The notes beneath the pieces were generated by a model. It worked only from the letters and a program-made list of their open reading frames with translations. It searched no databases and was not told where the DNA came from. Shown one piece after another: positions 48,523 through 59,444 of a DNA stretch of 64,000 nt (position 1 is its first letter; each line of letters begins with the position of its first letter). Source of the DNA: Sphaerotilus microaerophilus (GTDB lineage Bacteria > Pseudomonadota > Gammaproteobacteria > Burkholderiales > Burkholderiaceae_C); contig NZ_AP025730.1 in NCBI RefSeq assembly GCF_023734135.1, positions 1,984,001-2,048,000 on the forward strand, in the 5' to 3' direction. The translations under genes and the position numbers were made by a program.

Positions 48523-49302
48523 ATGGCGGGCAAGATCTTGTCGGCCGCGCCTGTGCTGATTGAACCAGGGGAGGGACACGTGGAGCGCCACGACATCGGT
48601 TTCGACGAAAGCGACAAGAATCTGTTTCAAGTCGAGGACGCTCGACTGCGCGCCGATGCGCTGCGGCATTCGATACTGCCGCGCCTGCACTTGGTGATGA
48701 ACGAGGCCATCGCTGGAATCAGGAACATCTACGGCGTTGACGTTCTTGAAGACTCCATCGTGACCTACTGGCCTCACTTCAGAACACGCCGCGAGGCTGA
48801 CCTGACCCACTTGTACGACTCGGCGTTTGTCGGCATCGGTGGGCGCAGAGTGAAGGAGAAGTGGTTCGGTGTCGCCAGGAAGGACGGCAAGCCGGTTCAG
48901 ATCCTTCCATTCAGGTTCGGCATGGAGCTCACCGTCGAGGGGCTATCGCTGCTGTTTGACAACCACTGGCTCAAAGGACTGACCGACGCGTCTTACGAGA
49001 AATACCTCGACTTTCATCTGGAGTTCGAGGGCCTGACGCACCGAATTTGCTACTTCTCGGGGTTGTTTCCGGAGCTTCCTGTCGGCAAGGGGGCGAGGGC
49101 GATTTCTCCCTTTCGTGAGCACTATCTCGACATGAAGGCCGAAAAGTATTTCGCCAACAGATTCTTCTCGGTCAGTGTGCAGAGCTACCCTGTGTCCGAG
49201 GAAGACATCAACCAGTTGATCTGGGCGCTTTCCTTCTTCTTTCCCGTCTACGACTCGTACATCCAGATATCGAAGGGCGAGCCTGTTCGATTTCTCGATT
49301 TA
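48523..49302 (+). pseudogene. 5' part of an HNH-endonuclease gene split by an IS element
   Basis: The first 260 codons of an unrecognised domain (MAGKILSAAPVLIEPGEGHV at the start; EEDINQLIWALSFFFPVYDS near the break). The frame ends in Leu TTA (49300-49302), whose TA is the target site of the IS630-type insertion. The rest of the gene resumes in frame at 51595. Removing the element plus one TA copy gives one protein of 383 residues with an HNH nuclease C-terminus. GC content is lower than neighbours. Confidence 0.75.
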
Positions 49303-49314
49303 TTAACCCGGCAA

Positions 49315-50388
49315 TTAAATATAAGACCAGTTCATGGCGACGCTCGCATATGAAACCGTCTTGCTCCTGAAGTAGCGTTTGATCTTTCCGGGTAGTTCAG
49401 CGAGTGTCTTCATGAATTCCTCAGCGATACGTTTGAGTTCATCGGAGTCCTTGGCCGCCGGGCGCATGCGCAACTCGGTCTTCAAGTCGCGGTTGAGGAT
49501 CTCGTCGGGATTGGCTTCGGGCGAGTACGGCGGCAAGTAATGAACCTCGATTTGCCTATCCTTGCCTTCGAGCCATTGCGTGACGGCCTTGGCCCGGTGA
49601 ACCCGAAGGTTGTCCACGATCAGGAAGACCTTCTTGCCGGCACTGTCGGCCACGAGCGCAGCGAGGAACTCGATGAATCGATCCTGGTTGATCGCGCCGT
49701 CGTGGAAGGCGAACTTCAGCAGTCCCTGGTTGGTCAGCGCCGAGATCATGGTGATGCTGGTCCAGCGCGCGGCATGCCGCAGCACCGGGGTCTGCCCGGC
49801 CGGGGCGTAGCCGCGCACCCAGGCGGTGTCCTGGCGGATGGCCGTCTCATCGCCCCAGTAGATCTCGCCTGCTTCAGCCTTGGCCCGACGCACCAGCGCG
49901 GGGTAGTCCACCTGCATCCATTGCTGCACCAGCTCGCTGCGCTGCTCGACGGCCCGTTTGGCGGGCCTCTGAGGCGTGAAACCCCAACGCCGCAGATACT
50001 CGCCCACGGTGCGAATGGGCATGTCGATGCCCAACTTGAGCTTGATGGCCTCCTGCACCGCCTTGCGCGTCCACAACGCGAACGGCAACGACATCTGATC
50101 TGGATTGCCCCCGACGATCTGATCGCGCAGGGCCATCTCATCGAGCAGGCTGATCGTGCGCTTTTCACCCACACGGCGCCCGCGCCGCGCCGAACTCACA
50201 TTCGTTGGCGCCTTTTCACCGCCCACATTGAAACGCCGTGCCCAACTCATGAGCGTGCTTTGGTGGACTCCAACGATCTGAGCAATCTCGGACCATGCCC
50301 GCCCGTCCTGACGCAGCCGGTGCGCCTGCCGGCGCAACAACTCCAGGGATTCTTCTGAAAGTGAACGGGCGTCAGTAGGCTTATTCAT
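49315..50388 (-). CDS. IS630-family transposase
   Basis: A 357-residue DDE transposase. The N-terminal helix-turn-helix region reads AWSEIAQIVGVHQSTLMSWA. The catalytic triad comes from YWGDETAIRQDTAW, VFLIVDNLRVHRAKAV and YLPPYSPEANPDE, which is the typical IS630 pattern. The start at MNKPTDARSLSEES (50388) is inside the outer element and just left of the nested IS insertion at 50398, which has separated the gene from its native promoter region. The coding sequence itself is intact. Confidence 0.92.
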   Translation of the reverse strand: MNKPTDARSLSEESLELLRRQAHRLRQDGRAWSEIAQIVGVHQSTLMSWARRFNVGGEKAPTNVSSARRGRRVGEKRTISLLDEMALRDQIVGGNPDQMSLPFALWTRKAVQEAIKLKLGIDMPIRTVGEYLRRWGFTPQRPAKRAVEQRSELVQQWMQVDYPALVRRAKAEAGEIYWGDETAIRQDTAWVRGYAPAGQTPVLRHAARWTSITMISALTNQGLLKFAFHDGAINQDRFIEFLAALVADSAGKKVFLIVDNLRVHRAKAVTQWLEGKDRQIEVHYLPPYSPEANPDEILNRDLKTELRMRPAAKDSDELKRIAEEFMKTLAELPGKIKRYFRSKTVSYASVAMNWSYI

Positions 50389-50397
50389 GCAAACATA

Positions 50398-51551
50398 GGA
50401 CTTACGCAAACGTTTAAATCAAACTAGATTATTTAATATATCGGCGCCGATTTCGTGGTATTTGTGATAATATATTCACCATGAAACCCACGAGCCGAGA
50501 CTACTGCCAATTTCTGATATCCACACAAATCAACTACACGCAGACCTATTTTGCGGATCACCATCAGAGGTTTTCTCATGACGCCATAAATCGCTACTTG
50601 CAGGCTGCCAATATCAGCCCGGCCGATGTCTGGAATCTGGCCCGACGAAACATCGAATTTGACGACGATGCCTGCCTGGTTTTCGATGACAGCGTTCTGG
50701 ACAAGAACCACTCGCACAAAATCGAGCTGGTGCGCAAACAGTACAGCGGCAACGCCCACGGCCTGATCAAGGGCATTGGGGTGGTCAACTGCCTGTACGT
50801 GAACATCAAGACCGGCCACTACTGGATCATCGACTGGCGCATCTATGCGCCTGACGAAGACGGCAAGTCCAAGCTGGATCATGTCCAGGAGATGTTCGAC
50901 AATGCCATGGCGCACAAGAAGCTGCCCTTTCGCACCGTGCTGATGGACTCCTGGTACGCCACCATGGATCTGATGAAGCACATCCACCGGGCGGGCAAGC
51001 ACTTCTACTGCCCGCTCAAGAGCAATCGCAAGGTTGACGACAGCCAAGGCCAGCAGCCCTACAAGGCGGTCAGTACGCTGCAGTGGAGTGCCCAAGAACA
51101 TGTGCATGGCAAACACGTCAAACTGTTCAAGTTTCCCAGTGACATCAAGCTGAAACTGTTCCGGGTTGTGGTTGATACCAATCGCACGGACTGGGTTGTG
51201 ACAAACGACCTATCTCAAGATTCGACGGACGATACGCATGAGATGTGTGCCGTGCGCTGGAAGATTGAGCAGTACCACAGGGAGATCAAGCAGGTTCTTG
51301 GCATCGAAAAATGTCAGTGCAGAATGGCCCGGTCACAGAAGAATCACATCGCCTGCGCGATATTGGCCTGGGTCCACCTCTGCGAGACGGCCAAAGCGCT
51401 GAAGACAAACATCTACAGCCTGAAGAAGGGAATCCTCTCGGAATTCCTCAAGAAGGAACTTCGGTCACCAACCATTCGCATGGCACCCATCTGACATATT
51501 GAGTCGAAATGGCGAATCATTGCGCTAGCTGAAGTGACCCTGCGTAAGTCC
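50398..51551. mobile_element. Second IS nested in the IS630-type element
   Basis: 1154 bp with 11-bp perfect terminal inverted repeats: GGACTTACGCA at 50398-50408 and TGCGTAAGTCC at 51541-51551. TA flanks both ends (50396-50397, 51552-51553) and may be a target duplication. It carries one transposase gene on the plus strand. AT content at the left end is high. IS701-like family membership is a guess from the transposase. Confidence 0.8.
50481..51494 (+). CDS. IS4/IS701-type DDE transposase
   Basis: A 337-residue transposase. The acidic triad is suggested by VFDDSVLDKNHSH, RTVLMDSWYATMDLM, and Glu in RWKIEQYHREIKQVLG, the last resembling the IS4-superfamily YREK box. KQYSGNAHGLIKGIGVVNCL is typical of IS701-like enzymes. 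The protein looks complete. It is the only long gene of the nested IS, and its right end is 57 bp before the terminal repeat. Confidence 0.88.
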   Translation: MKPTSRDYCQFLISTQINYTQTYFADHHQRFSHDAINRYLQAANISPADVWNLARRNIEFDDDACLVFDDSVLDKNHSHKIELVRKQYSGNAHGLIKGIGVVNCLYVNIKTGHYWIIDWRIYAPDEDGKSKLDHVQEMFDNAMAHKKLPFRTVLMDSWYATMDLMKHIHRAGKHFYCPLKSNRKVDDSQGQQPYKAVSTLQWSAQEHVHGKHVKLFKFPSDIKLKLFRVVVDTNRTDWVVTNDLSQDSTDDTHEMCAVRWKIEQYHREIKQVLGIEKCQCRMARSQKNHIACAILAWVHLCETAKALKTNIYSLKKGILSEFLKKELRSPTIRMAPI

Positions 51552-51594
51552 TAAAACATTATACTAACATTTGTATTTAATTGCCAGGTTAATA

Positions 51595-51966
51595 ATCGCC
51601 AAGGCGAACGATTTCCTCGACTCCCTCCAAGAGGAACCTGCCAAAGATTCCACCGTAGCCGGCCAGTCATCGGTTGACCATGGACTGCAGCACGGTGCGG
51701 CCCAACTTGCGGTGCAGCGCGTTCGTGTGATGCCCGCTCTTCGGTGGCAAGTCTTCCAGCGGGACCGTTGGAAATGCGTGGCCTGCGGGCGCGGCTCACA
51801 TGATGACGTGATCTTGCATGTCGATCACATACTTCCGCGTTCGCGAGGTGGCACAGACAGTCTGGACAACTTTCAGACGCTGTGCGACCGGTGCAATATT
51901 GGCAAGAGCAACCGGGACGACACCGATCTGCGTTCAGCAGAGTCGCCGCCCGTACGATCAGACTGA
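51595..51966 (+). pseudogene. 3' part of the split gene: HNH endonuclease domain
   Basis: Continuation of the frame broken at 49302. It encodes an HNH nuclease domain: RWQVFQRDRWKCVACGRG, HVDHILPRSRGGTDSLDN and FQTLCDRCNIGKSNRDD, with the zinc Cys pairs CxxC (CVAC, CDRC) and the His-Asn-His set of the ββα-metal fold. On its own it has no proper start; read from a TTG at 51571 it includes IS sequence. Together with 48523-49302 it was a restriction-like or defence nuclease, an inference. Confidence 0.8.
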
Positions 51967-52006: not shown

Positions 52007-52348
52007 TCAGGGAGTCCCCAGCAGGCGTTCAATTCGGGCCATCAATTCAGGCAGATGGGCCGTCGCCACATCCCAGACGAGCCGATGGTCCACCGATCCG
52101 TAGGCATGAATCAGGATGTTCCGCAGGCCGACCGCCGCATTCAACTCGGGGATCTGCGCGGCGGTGGCGGCATCCACCTTGCGGAGTTGGTTGAGAGCCT
52201 CGCCGACGATTTCCAGTTTCCGTTCGACAGCGGCAGACAGCATCGGGTCGGCCAGGTAGTCGCTGAAGCTCCGGCCTCGCACGAAGCCGCACACCGCCTG
52301 GGCGGCGGCATGCGCATCCCACAGCAGGGCCGCCGCGTCAGGCGCCAT
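52007..52348 (-). CDS. hepT: HepT-type HEPN toxin
   Basis: A 113-residue HEPN-domain protein (DUF86/HepT). The RNase-type motif Rx4H is present as RNILIHAYGSVDH (Arg-Asn-x3-His-x-Tyr), preceded by RKLEIVGEALNQL. It pairs with the overlapping MNT gene upstream; the start overlaps its end by 11 bp. In the HepT/MntA system the toxin is blocked by AMPylation of this Tyr region. Transcribed away from the acyl-CoA synthetase gene. Confidence 0.92.
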   Translation of the reverse strand: MAPDAAALLWDAHAAAQAVCGFVRGRSFSDYLADPMLSAAVERKLEIVGEALNQLRKVDAATAAQIPELNAAVGLRNILIHAYGSVDHRLVWDVATAHLPELMARIERLLGTP

Positions 52349-52655
52349 ACACCGTCAGCCGTTCGGCATCGACGCGCTGACGCAGATAAGGGTTGACGAT
52401 CTGCTGGCTGCTCAGCAGGTCGACCGGGCGCTCGAACAGCGCTTCCAGGTCGCGCTTCAGGCCGAAGAAGGCCTCGGCATACCCGCCGGGCGGCAGGTCG
52501 CTGGGCAGATCGACCAGGAAGTCGAGATCGCTTCGCTCTGGCGCGAAATCTGCGCGCGTGGCCGAGCCGAACAGATCCAGCCGCCGGGCGTGATGGCGGC
52601 GGCACAGTGCCGCGACGTCTTCGCGGTGCTCCTGGATGAAGGTGGGCAGGGCCAT
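52338..52655 (-). CDS. mntA: MntA-type nucleotidyltransferase antitoxin
   Basis: A 105-residue minimal nucleotidyltransferase. GSATRADFAPERSDLDFLVD is the GSx10DxD motif that binds metal and nucleotide. The start at MALPTFIQEHRED (52655) is the first good codon; the frame is open upstream but antisense to the acs region. It would neutralise HepT by AMP transfer (type VII toxin-antitoxin). Confidence 0.93.
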   Translation of the reverse strand: MALPTFIQEHREDVAALCRRHHARRLDLFGSATRADFAPERSDLDFLVDLPSDLPPGGYAEAFFGLKRDLEALFERPVDLLSSQQIVNPYLRQRVDAERLTVYGA

Positions 52656-52792: not shown

Positions 52793-54445
52793 ATGACCGA
52801 CGCCTCTCGCCTGAACCCCTACGACACCAACCTCGACCGCAACCCCGCCAACTTCGTGGCGCTGAGCCCTTTGAGCTTCCTGGAGCGCACGGCGAGGGTG
52901 TACCCGCAGCGCCTGGCGCTGGTGCACGGGGGGCTGCGGCAGACCTGGGCACAGACCTTCGAGCGCTGCCGCCGCCTGGCGTCGGCGCTCAGCAAGCGCG
53001 GCATCGGCCTGGGTGACACGGTGGCGGCCATGCTGCCCAACACCCCGCCGATGTACGAAGCCCACTTCGGCGTGCCGGTGACCGGCGCGGTGCTCAACAC
53101 CCTGAACACCCGGCTCGACCCGGAGGCGATTGCCTTCCAGCTCGACCACGGCGAAGCCAAGGTCCTGCTGACCGACCGCGAGTTCTCCTCCACCATCGCC
53201 CGCGCGCTGGCGCTGATGACCGGCCCCAAGCCGCTGGTGATCGACGTGCTGGATGCGGAGTTCGACGGCGGCAAGAGCCTGGGTGAACTCGACTACGAAG
53301 CCTTCCTGGCCGAAGGCGACCCGGCCTTCGCCTGGACCTTGCCGGCCGACGAATGGCAGGCCATCTCGCTGAACTACACCAGCGGCACCACCGGCAACCC
53401 CAAGGGCGTGGTCACCCACCACCGCGGCGCCTACCTGAACGCCGTGTCCAACGTGGTGACCTGGACGATGCCCCAGCACCCGGTCTACCTGTGGACCCTG
53501 CCGATGTTCCACTGCAACGGCTGGTGCTTCCCCTGGACCATGGCGCTGCAGGCCGGGGTGAGCGTCTGCCTGCGCCGGGTCGACCCACAGCTGATCTTCC
53601 CGCTCATCCGCGAGCAGCAGGTCACCCACATGTGCGGTGCCCCCATCGTCTACGGCATGCTGGTCAACGCCCCGGCCGCGCTGAGAGAAGGCATCAGCCA
53701 CACCGTGCAGGGCCTGATCGCCGGGGCGGCGCCGCCGGCCGCGATCATCGAAGGCTGCGAGCGCATCGGCATCGACATCACCCACGTCTACGGCCTGACC
53801 GAGGTCTACGGCCCGGCGGCCGTTTGCGCCAAGCAGGAAGAGTGGAGCGGCCTGCCCATCGAAGAACGCGCCGCGCTCAACGCCCGCCAGGGCGTGGCCT
53901 ACCCGCTGCAGCAGGACGTCACCGTGCTCAACCCCGAGACGCTGCAGCCGGTGCCCGCCGATGGCGAGACGATGGGCGAGATCTTCTTCCGCGGCAACAT
54001 CGTGATGAAGGGCTACCTGAAGAACCCCGAGGCGACGCAGGAAGCCTTCAAGGGCGGCTGGTTCCACACCGGGGATCTGGCGGTGATGCACCCGGACGGC
54101 TACGTCAAGATCAAGGACCGCAGCAAGGACATCATCATCTCGGGCGGGGAGAACATCTCCAGCGTGGAGGTGGAGGAAGTGCTGTACCGGCACCCGGCCG
54201 TGGCCTTGGCGGCGGTGGTGGCGGTGCCGGATGCAAAGTGGGGCGAGGTGCCCTGCGCGGTGGTGGAGCTGCGCGACGGCGTGAGCGCCACGCCCGAGGA
54301 GATCATCGAGTTCTGCCGCGGCCACATGGCGCGCTACAAGGTGCCCAAGCAGATCGTCTTCGGCGTGCTGCCCAAGACCTCGACCGGCAAGATCCAGAAG
54401 TTCCAGCTGCGCCAGCAGTTCAGGTCGGCTGCGGCGATCGGCTGA
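52793..54445 (+). CDS. Acyl-CoA synthetase, copy 1
   Basis: A 550-residue AMP-forming acyl-CoA ligase activating fatty or aromatic acids as CoA esters. Core motifs: LNYTSGTTGNPKGVVTHHRG (ATP-binding P-loop), MFHCNGWCFPWTMALQAGV, VYGLTEVYGP, GWFHTGDLAVMHPDGYVKIK and PKTSTGKIQK with the catalytic Lys. Close to the long/medium-chain group often labelled 3-methylmercaptopropionyl-CoA ligase-like. Its first 300 and last 190 bp are identical to copy 2 at 57804-59444. The divergent mntA-hepT pair lies upstream. Confidence 0.92.
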   Translation: MTDASRLNPYDTNLDRNPANFVALSPLSFLERTARVYPQRLALVHGGLRQTWAQTFERCRRLASALSKRGIGLGDTVAAMLPNTPPMYEAHFGVPVTGAVLNTLNTRLDPEAIAFQLDHGEAKVLLTDREFSSTIARALALMTGPKPLVIDVLDAEFDGGKSLGELDYEAFLAEGDPAFAWTLPADEWQAISLNYTSGTTGNPKGVVTHHRGAYLNAVSNVVTWTMPQHPVYLWTLPMFHCNGWCFPWTMALQAGVSVCLRRVDPQLIFPLIREQQVTHMCGAPIVYGMLVNAPAALREGISHTVQGLIAGAAPPAAIIEGCERIGIDITHVYGLTEVYGPAAVCAKQEEWSGLPIEERAALNARQGVAYPLQQDVTVLNPETLQPVPADGETMGEIFFRGNIVMKGYLKNPEATQEAFKGGWFHTGDLAVMHPDGYVKIKDRSKDIIISGGENISSVEVEEVLYRHPAVALAAVVAVPDAKWGEVPCAVVELRDGVSATPEEIIEFCRGHMARYKVPKQIVFGVLPKTSTGKIQKFQLRQQFRSAAAIG

Positions 54446-57620: not shown

Positions 57621-57803
57621 CGGCAGTAGCGCCTGTGCCAAGCACAGACCGCTGCAGGAAATTCTAGGAGGCTGCCTGAGGTGTGACCGAAGTTGCAAAC
57701 ATTCGTCACATTGCATGGCGGGCGCTGCAACGTTCTCTCGCGATGCTTCCGGTCCAGAGCAGCCCCGCGCCTCGTGCGGCGGCCGACACCGGAGACAACG
57801 ACG

Positions 57804-59444
57804 ATGCAGACCCATCCCTACAACGTCGGGCTGGACAAGAACGACGCCAATTTTGTGGCGCTGAGCCCTTTGAGCTTCCTGGAGCGCACGGCGAGGGTGT
57901 ACCCGCAGCGCCTGGCGCTGGTGCACGGGGGGCTGCGGCAGACCTGGGCACAGACCTTCGAGCGCTGCCGCCGCCTGGCGTCGGCGCTCAGCAAGCGCGG
58001 CATCGGCCTGGGTGACACGGTGGCGGCCATGCTGCCCAACACCCCGCCGATGTACGAAGCCCACTTCGGCGTGCCGGTGACCGGCGCGGTGCTCAACACC
58101 CTGAACACCCGGCTCGACCCGGAGGCGATTGCCTTCCAGCTCGACCACGGCGGCGCCAAGGTACTGCTCACCGACCGGGAGTTCTCCTCGACGATCGCCC
58201 GCGCCCTGGCGCTGATGACCGGCCCGAAGCCGCTGGTCATCGACGTGCTCGACGCCGACTTCGAAGGCGGTAAGTCGCTGGGTGAGCTGGACTACGAGGC
58301 CTTCCTCGCCGAAGGCGACCCGGTCTACGCCTGGACGCTGCCTGCGGACGAATGGCAGGCCATCTCGCTGAACTACACCAGCGGCACCACCGGCAACCCC
58401 AAGGGCGTGGTGACCCACCACCGCGGCGCCTACCTGAACGCCGTGTCCAACGTCGTCACCTGGACGCTGCCCCTGCACCCGGTGTACCTGTGGACGCTGC
58501 CGATGTTCCACTGCAACGGCTGGTGCTTCCCCTGGACGATGGCGCTGCAGGCGGGCGTCAGCGTCTGCCTGCGCCGGGTCGACCCGCAGCTGATCTTCCC
58601 GCTGATTCGCGAGCAGAAGGTGACGCACATGTGCGGTGCCCCCATCGTCTACGGCATGCTCGTCAACGCCCCCGCTGCGCTGCGCGAAGGCATCAGCCAC
58701 ACCGTGCAGGGCCTGATCGCCGGGGCGGCGCCGCCGGCGGCGATCATCGAAGGCTGCGAGCGCATCGGCATCGACATCACCCACGTCTACGGCCTGACCG
58801 AGGTCTACGGCCCGGCGGCCGTCTGCGCCAAGCAGGAGGAATGGGCGCCTCTGCCGATCGAGCAGCGCGCCGCACTGAACGCCCGCCAGGGCGTGGCCTA
58901 CCCGCTGCAGCAGGACGTCACCGTGCTGAACCCCGAGACGCTGCAGCCCGTGCCGGCCGACGGCGAGACGATGGGCGAGATCTTCTTCCGCGGCAACATC
59001 GTCATGAAAGGCTACCTGAAGAACCCCGAGGCGAGCGCCGAGGCCTTCCGTGGCGGCTGGTTCCACACCGGAGATCTCGCGGTGCTGCACCCGGACGGCT
59101 ACGTCAAGATCAAGGACCGCAGCAAGGACATCATCATCTCCGGCGGGGAGAACATCTCCAGCGTGGAGGTGGAGGAGGTGCTGTACCGGCACCCGGCGGT
59201 GGCGCTGGCCGCGGTGGTGGCGGTGCCCGATGCGAAGTGGGGCGAGGTGCCCTGCGCGGTGGTGGAGCTGCGCGACGGCGTGAGCGCCACGCCCGAGGAG
59301 ATCATCGAGTTCTGCCGCGGCCACATGGCGCGCTACAAGGTGCCCAAGCAGATCGTCTTCGGCGTGCTGCCCAAGACCTCGACCGGCAAGATCCAGAAGT
59401 TCCAGCTGCGCCAGCAGTTCAAGTCGGCTTCGGCGATCGGCTGA
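57804..59444 (+). CDS. Acyl-CoA synthetase, copy 2
   Basis: A 546-residue ligase nearly the same as copy 1 (same spacing throughout; offset 4999 bp). The N-terminus differs (MQTHPYNVGLDKNDANF), with GGAGAC upstream of the ATG. Motifs are as in copy 1: TSGTTGNPKGV, GWFHTGDLAVLHPDGY and PKTSTGKIQK. It is followed after 10 bp by livG, so it belongs to the ABC transporter operon. This suggests the imported compound is activated to a CoA thioester on arrival. Confidence 0.92.
   Translation: MQTHPYNVGLDKNDANFVALSPLSFLERTARVYPQRLALVHGGLRQTWAQTFERCRRLASALSKRGIGLGDTVAAMLPNTPPMYEAHFGVPVTGAVLNTLNTRLDPEAIAFQLDHGGAKVLLTDREFSSTIARALALMTGPKPLVIDVLDADFEGGKSLGELDYEAFLAEGDPVYAWTLPADEWQAISLNYTSGTTGNPKGVVTHHRGAYLNAVSNVVTWTLPLHPVYLWTLPMFHCNGWCFPWTMALQAGVSVCLRRVDPQLIFPLIREQKVTHMCGAPIVYGMLVNAPAALREGISHTVQGLIAGAAPPAAIIEGCERIGIDITHVYGLTEVYGPAAVCAKQEEWAPLPIEQRAALNARQGVAYPLQQDVTVLNPETLQPVPADGETMGEIFFRGNIVMKGYLKNPEASAEAFRGGWFHTGDLAVLHPDGYVKIKDRSKDIIISGGENISSVEVEEVLYRHPAVALAAVVAVPDAKWGEVPCAVVELRDGVSATPEEIIEFCRGHMARYKVPKQIVFGVLPKTSTGKIQKFQLRQQFKSASAIG

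Follow-up and report, generated by a model that had tools for sequence, protein, structure and literature searches.

Modification-dependent nucleases in which a reader domain is fused to an HNH domain include the wH-HNH and PUA-wH-HNH enzymes (PMC11037411) and the EVE-HNH enzymes (PMC7641849). McrA-like type IV enzymes, among them the type IV restriction enzyme EcoKMcrA (6ghc; PMC7145662), consist of an N-terminal domain, a linker and an HNH domain, and are mostly solitary, scattered and often lost. The same plan is found in the family of a split gene located in a 64,000-nucleotide stretch of the Sphaerotilus microaerophilus genome (hereafter the window, positions 1,984,001-2,048,000 of contig 1; the genome comprises 6.06 Mb in two contigs). 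The general plan, an N-terminal domain fused to HNH, is common to all of these enzymes, and the difference lies in the N-terminal domain, which in the window family has a predicted DUF1054/YktB fold instead of those described for EcoKMcrA and for the wH-HNH, PUA-wH-HNH and EVE-HNH nucleases. The best overall explanation, which we hold with somewhat more confidence than doubt, is that this family consists of solitary DUF1054-fold-HNH restriction-type nucleases, and that the window carries a dead or dormant copy of such a rare two-domain nuclease, inactivated by insertion sequence (IS) elements.

The two pieces of the split gene both lie on the forward strand. The 5' part (48523-49302) encodes residues 1-260, which form the DUF1054/YktB-fold domain; its frame, which begins with the ATG at 48523, stays open up to the IS boundary, and the break falls after residue 260. 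The 3' part (51595-51966) encodes the linker and the HNH nuclease domain, the latter at about 51775-51915 (PF01844, E 1.8e-13; PF14279, E 2.9e-12). When aligned separately, the two pieces land consecutively on residues 1-260 and 261-383 of an intact relative of 383 amino acids (P0001), with 97% identity across the first part. A search with the first 260 residues returned 191 proteins (E up to 1e-3), and Pfam recognized an HNH domain in 112 of the 120 that were listed. The window pieces are therefore parts of a single gene into which nested IS elements have inserted, as the first-pass annotation had proposed when it described a 383-residue gene interrupted in frame, and its call for full-length homologues spanning the junction was answered many times over, the halves not always being separate genes. 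That two separate genes were juxtaposed by chance around the IS elements can be regarded as refuted: it would account for the split itself and for the lack of an HNH call in 8 of the 120 listed homologues (7 of these 8 being short), but P0001, P0002, P0003 and more than 100 further homologues run across the junction. One 86% relative, P0004 (214 amino acids, from an assembly of 8 contigs, the longest of 94,869 bases), ends near the position of residue 233 in the window protein and is possibly another natural interruption.

A CxxC...CxxC zinc site and a D-H / N / C-N motif are conserved with few or no exceptions across 110 relatives, and both are present in the 3' window piece, which places it among the HNH (His-Me finger) nucleases. 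The earlier proposal of a zinc-type HNH nuclease fused to an N-terminal domain thus holds. The N-terminal domain has no family name. No match was found for the first 260 residues in Pfam or PADLOC (E up to 1) or in PHROG (E up to 0.01), and in this respect the description of an unknown domain of about 260 residues still stands; a fold search corrects it by assigning the domain the DUF1054/YktB fold. Known modified-base reader domains include SRA, NEco, EVE, SBD, wH and YTH. The fold search returned DUF1054 and none of the known readers, although absence from such a list excludes nothing.

The resemblance to DUF1054 (PF06335) is one of predicted fold, and no link at the level of sequence was found. 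Identity between the window domain and the solved representatives, from Bacillus subtilis (Q45498 = 2a8e) and Leptospirillum (3mqz), is 12%, and the window piece gives no PF06335 match at E up to 1. Nor was PF06335 detected in 100 genomes of the phylum, that of the window included, or in 18 genomes carrying loci of the family. In addition, both of the solved chains with this fold are unfused and have 205-210 amino acids, whereas the window-type domain is fused to HNH. A second search, with residues 1-250 of a divergent cyanobacterial member, returned 48 proteins, of which 43 had an HNH call and none a call for another nuclease. To our knowledge, DUF1054 has no known function. In the open PMC subset, no article on DUF1054, YktB, UPF0637 or PF06335 dealt with an HNH fusion, judging by titles, and nothing combined HNH with UPF0637, or McrA with HNH and DUF1054. 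The family is thus not described in the open PMC literature that was searched, in line with the first-pass view of an undescribed protein; its further label as a restriction or defence protein is weakly backed and is weighed below.

The interruption can be reconstructed in detail. The outer element (49303-51592, reverse strand) opens with TTAACCCGGCAATTAAATA at 49303, closes with a near-perfect inverted copy at 51592, and is flanked by TA at 49301-49302 and 51593-51594. It encodes an intact transposase frame of 357 amino acids on the reverse strand (49315-50388; DDE_3, PF13358, E 7.2e-40). Two uninterrupted copies of 1127 bp elsewhere in the genome (L002 and L004) have the same ends and borders as the window copy, TA before TTAACC and after GGTTAA. 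Exact 22-base end probes matched nothing at the remaining copy (L005). With a DDE_3 transposase and a TA target duplication, the borders being seen in three copies, the element belongs to the IS630 family. It is itself interrupted, just upstream of its transposase start, by an IS4-like element of 1158 bp on the forward strand (50396-51553), which has 13-bp ends, TAGGACTTACGCA, a 5-bp duplication AAACA on both sides (50391-50395 and 51554-51558) and a transposase of 337 amino acids (50481-51494, forward strand; PF01609, E 8e-14). The lengths add up exactly (2290 = 1127 + 1158 + 5), and the nesting gives the order of insertion, the IS630-type element first and the IS4-like element second. Both elements are repeated in the genome: the first 1094 bp of the outer one have 4 matches at 98-100%, window copy included, and 4 more at 67-71%, and the inner one has 27 full-length and 6 partial matches. 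In three places (near 1156945-1159265, 3186523-3188842 and 4010566-4012886 of contig G000:C1), the IS4-like element has inserted into another copy of itself, each time at about internal position 751-755; either this site is preferred, or a single event was duplicated afterwards. The nesting at the split gene is everyday genome wear, and the split, real as it is, is ordinary.

Intact relatives are rare but scattered across many bacterial groups. In a scan of one genome per species, covering 84,980 species, 95 loci were confirmed and the best 80 kept: 32 are full-span, 7 are cut off by contig ends and so incomplete, and 41 (L079-L119) match over little or nothing beyond the HNH end. A profile of the N-terminal domain matched 37 of the 39 full-span or contig-end loci and none of the 41 HNH-end loci. 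Going by record titles, from which we assigned phylum names, the full-span loci come from Methylococcaceae, other Gammaproteobacteria, Desulfobacterota, Bacteroidota, Cyanobacteria, Spirochaetota, Chloroflexota, Elusimicrobia, Synergistota and Myxococcota. Source records mostly call the relatives 'HNH endonuclease', 'hypothetical protein' or 'McrA'. A scan of genome contigs for close relatives found none when the N-terminal piece alone was the query, and an alignment of relatives as query worked. For the family and the class of the window's genome, 199 and 368 genomes were searched, and no further member was found. Matches were obtained in 326 phage and 52 plasmid records, none of which covered 80% of P0001, and the N-terminal profile matched none of the 80 viral loci kept out of 312 confirmed. 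The split gene has a GC content of 0.56-0.60 against 0.69 for the window, so its low GC was correctly noted at first sight. Because of this difference and the patchy distribution of the family, the gene was probably acquired horizontally.

On one side of the window gene stands an AHSA1/SRPBCC gene, on the other a gene for an AMP-binding protein (acyl-CoA ligase). In the other genome of the genus that best matches the AHSA1/SRPBCC flank (G206), a YgjP-like metallopeptidase and a TacA1-like antitoxin fragment take the place of the nuclease gene between these flanks; the spot between the SRPBCC and ligase genes is variable. The gene probably entered this spot; the IS630-type element then inserted at a TA in codon 260, and the IS4-like element into the IS630-type one. 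For a metagenomic relative (P0002, 89%) and for a ligase relative (P0176, 95%), the longest contig is given as 24,654 bases in both cases. This shared figure, taken by itself, suggests a sister strain in which the gene is intact and close to that ligase. The acyl-CoA ligase frames at 52805-54445 and 57693-59444, about 3 kb apart, share 96% protein identity. Convergent with the split gene is a toxin-antitoxin pair of HepT-MntA type (52007-52655), made up of a HepT-like HEPN toxin (52007-52348, reverse strand; PF01934, E 1.4e-20) and an MntA-like nucleotidyltransferase antitoxin (52338-52655, reverse strand; PF01909, E 5.4e-7).

As to function, the N-terminal DUF1054/YktB-fold domain probably binds DNA or some feature of DNA, and a flexible linker would connect it to the zinc-bound HNH domain, which would cut. 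Like the McrA-type enzymes of type IV, it most likely works alone: the N-terminal domain would recognize incoming DNA, possibly by a modification, and the enzyme would cut it. Its genes stand alone as type IV genes do: among 115 proteins encoded by up to two genes on each side of the 32 full-span loci (one of 116 was left out), the C5 methylase family PF00145 was found once, other methylase classes not being counted individually and distant ones not sought. In the window, Pfam identified no methylase among the seven proteins scanned around the gene (43.9-55.6 kb), the search being confined to these. The same counts speak against a sequence-specific type II restriction endonuclease, whose required cognate methylase would usually have to be lost or encoded elsewhere, and a lone enzyme of that type would be expected to damage its host. 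We consider this option unlikely, even though at L041 the gene shares 4 nt with the gene for a C5 methylase (TIGR00675, E 1.4e-109), L077 carries a gene of the same methylase cluster about 3 kb off, and the HNH part matches a PADLOC type II endonuclease model weakly (E 1.6e-8, HNH region only).

Defence is a plausible and the most likely role for the stand-alone nuclease, and the neighbourhoods of its relatives, which the first-pass annotation had wished to see inspected for defence genes, give this idea weak support. With mechanically drawn frames, 7 of the 32 loci show a 4-nt overlap with a neighbour, the partners being PtuA-like (L042, L044, L046), the C5 methylase (L041), a TPR protein (L050), an unknown protein (L056) and a T5orf172 protein (L071). 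Among the first 25 of 224 and of 147 neighbour families tallied, PtuA/PtuB are the PADLOC models with most matches and PIN is the commonest Pfam family, with 4; a Schlafen-type helicase and an AbiO/PDC-like ATPase (L058) also occur once each. Three observations weaken a defensive reading: PtuAB-like genes adjoin only 3 of the 32 loci and a directly coupled C5 methylase only 1, HepT-MntA is not a constant partner of the relatives, and many of the other neighbours that could be named are housekeeping genes.

In the three loci with Septu-type neighbours, all from Methylococcaceae (L042:2545-5809, L044:2131-5359 and L046:5996-9230), the DUF1054-like-HNH gene overlaps the PtuA-like ATPase gene, which is followed by a PtuB-like HNH gene, an arrangement that is possibly a three-gene Septu variant. 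It could be taken to mean that the protein serves larger defence systems, Septu among them, as an accessory effector subunit, and that solitary copies are remnants. This is very unlikely, given the confinement of the arrangement to one family, the broken nuclease gene beside open PtuA-like and PtuB-like frames at L046, and the absence of a PtuA/PtuB pair from the window open reading frames between 44 and 56 kb and from the neighbours that were scanned at the remaining 29 loci.

The position of many relatives as single genes amid housekeeping genes also recalls a selfish nuclease gene of the homing type, which cuts new sites and is then copied into them. Decay is frequent, with 7 of the 32 full-span copies broken by in-frame stops (L046, L058, L063) or frame changes (L059, L067, L071, L073), sequencing error being possible mainly in metagenome-assembled genomes, and direct repeats of at least 50 bp were seen on both sides of the gene at 5 of the 29 loci that could be tested, compared with 3 of 127 control genes (Fisher p 0.006, a rough value since the controls come from the same loci). 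These repeats hint at the insertion of small islets. However, no intron, intein or common target gene is seen, neighbours vary among loci except in Methylococcaceae, and the repeats vary from locus to locus, which makes a homing gene quite unlikely. At L054, L059, L061 and L077, the gene is flanked by direct repeats of 170-212 bp with 84-97% identity, among them what reads as a duplicated acyl-CoA ligase end at L077 and a duplicated antitoxin start at L061. An integron-cassette origin was considered because of the repeats and dropped because they are dissimilar among loci, no search for attC sites being made.

It is a tentative proposal, put forward with rather less than even confidence, that these proteins are stand-alone restriction nucleases of an undescribed family, in which the domain with the DUF1054/YktB fold recognizes a mark or sequence in DNA and directs the HNH cutter, with an occasional Septu partner. 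If it is true, the DUF1054 fold would gain its first function, as a DNA-recognition module, and a widely scattered nuclease family would become a testable restriction system, for which the intact relatives make testing simple.
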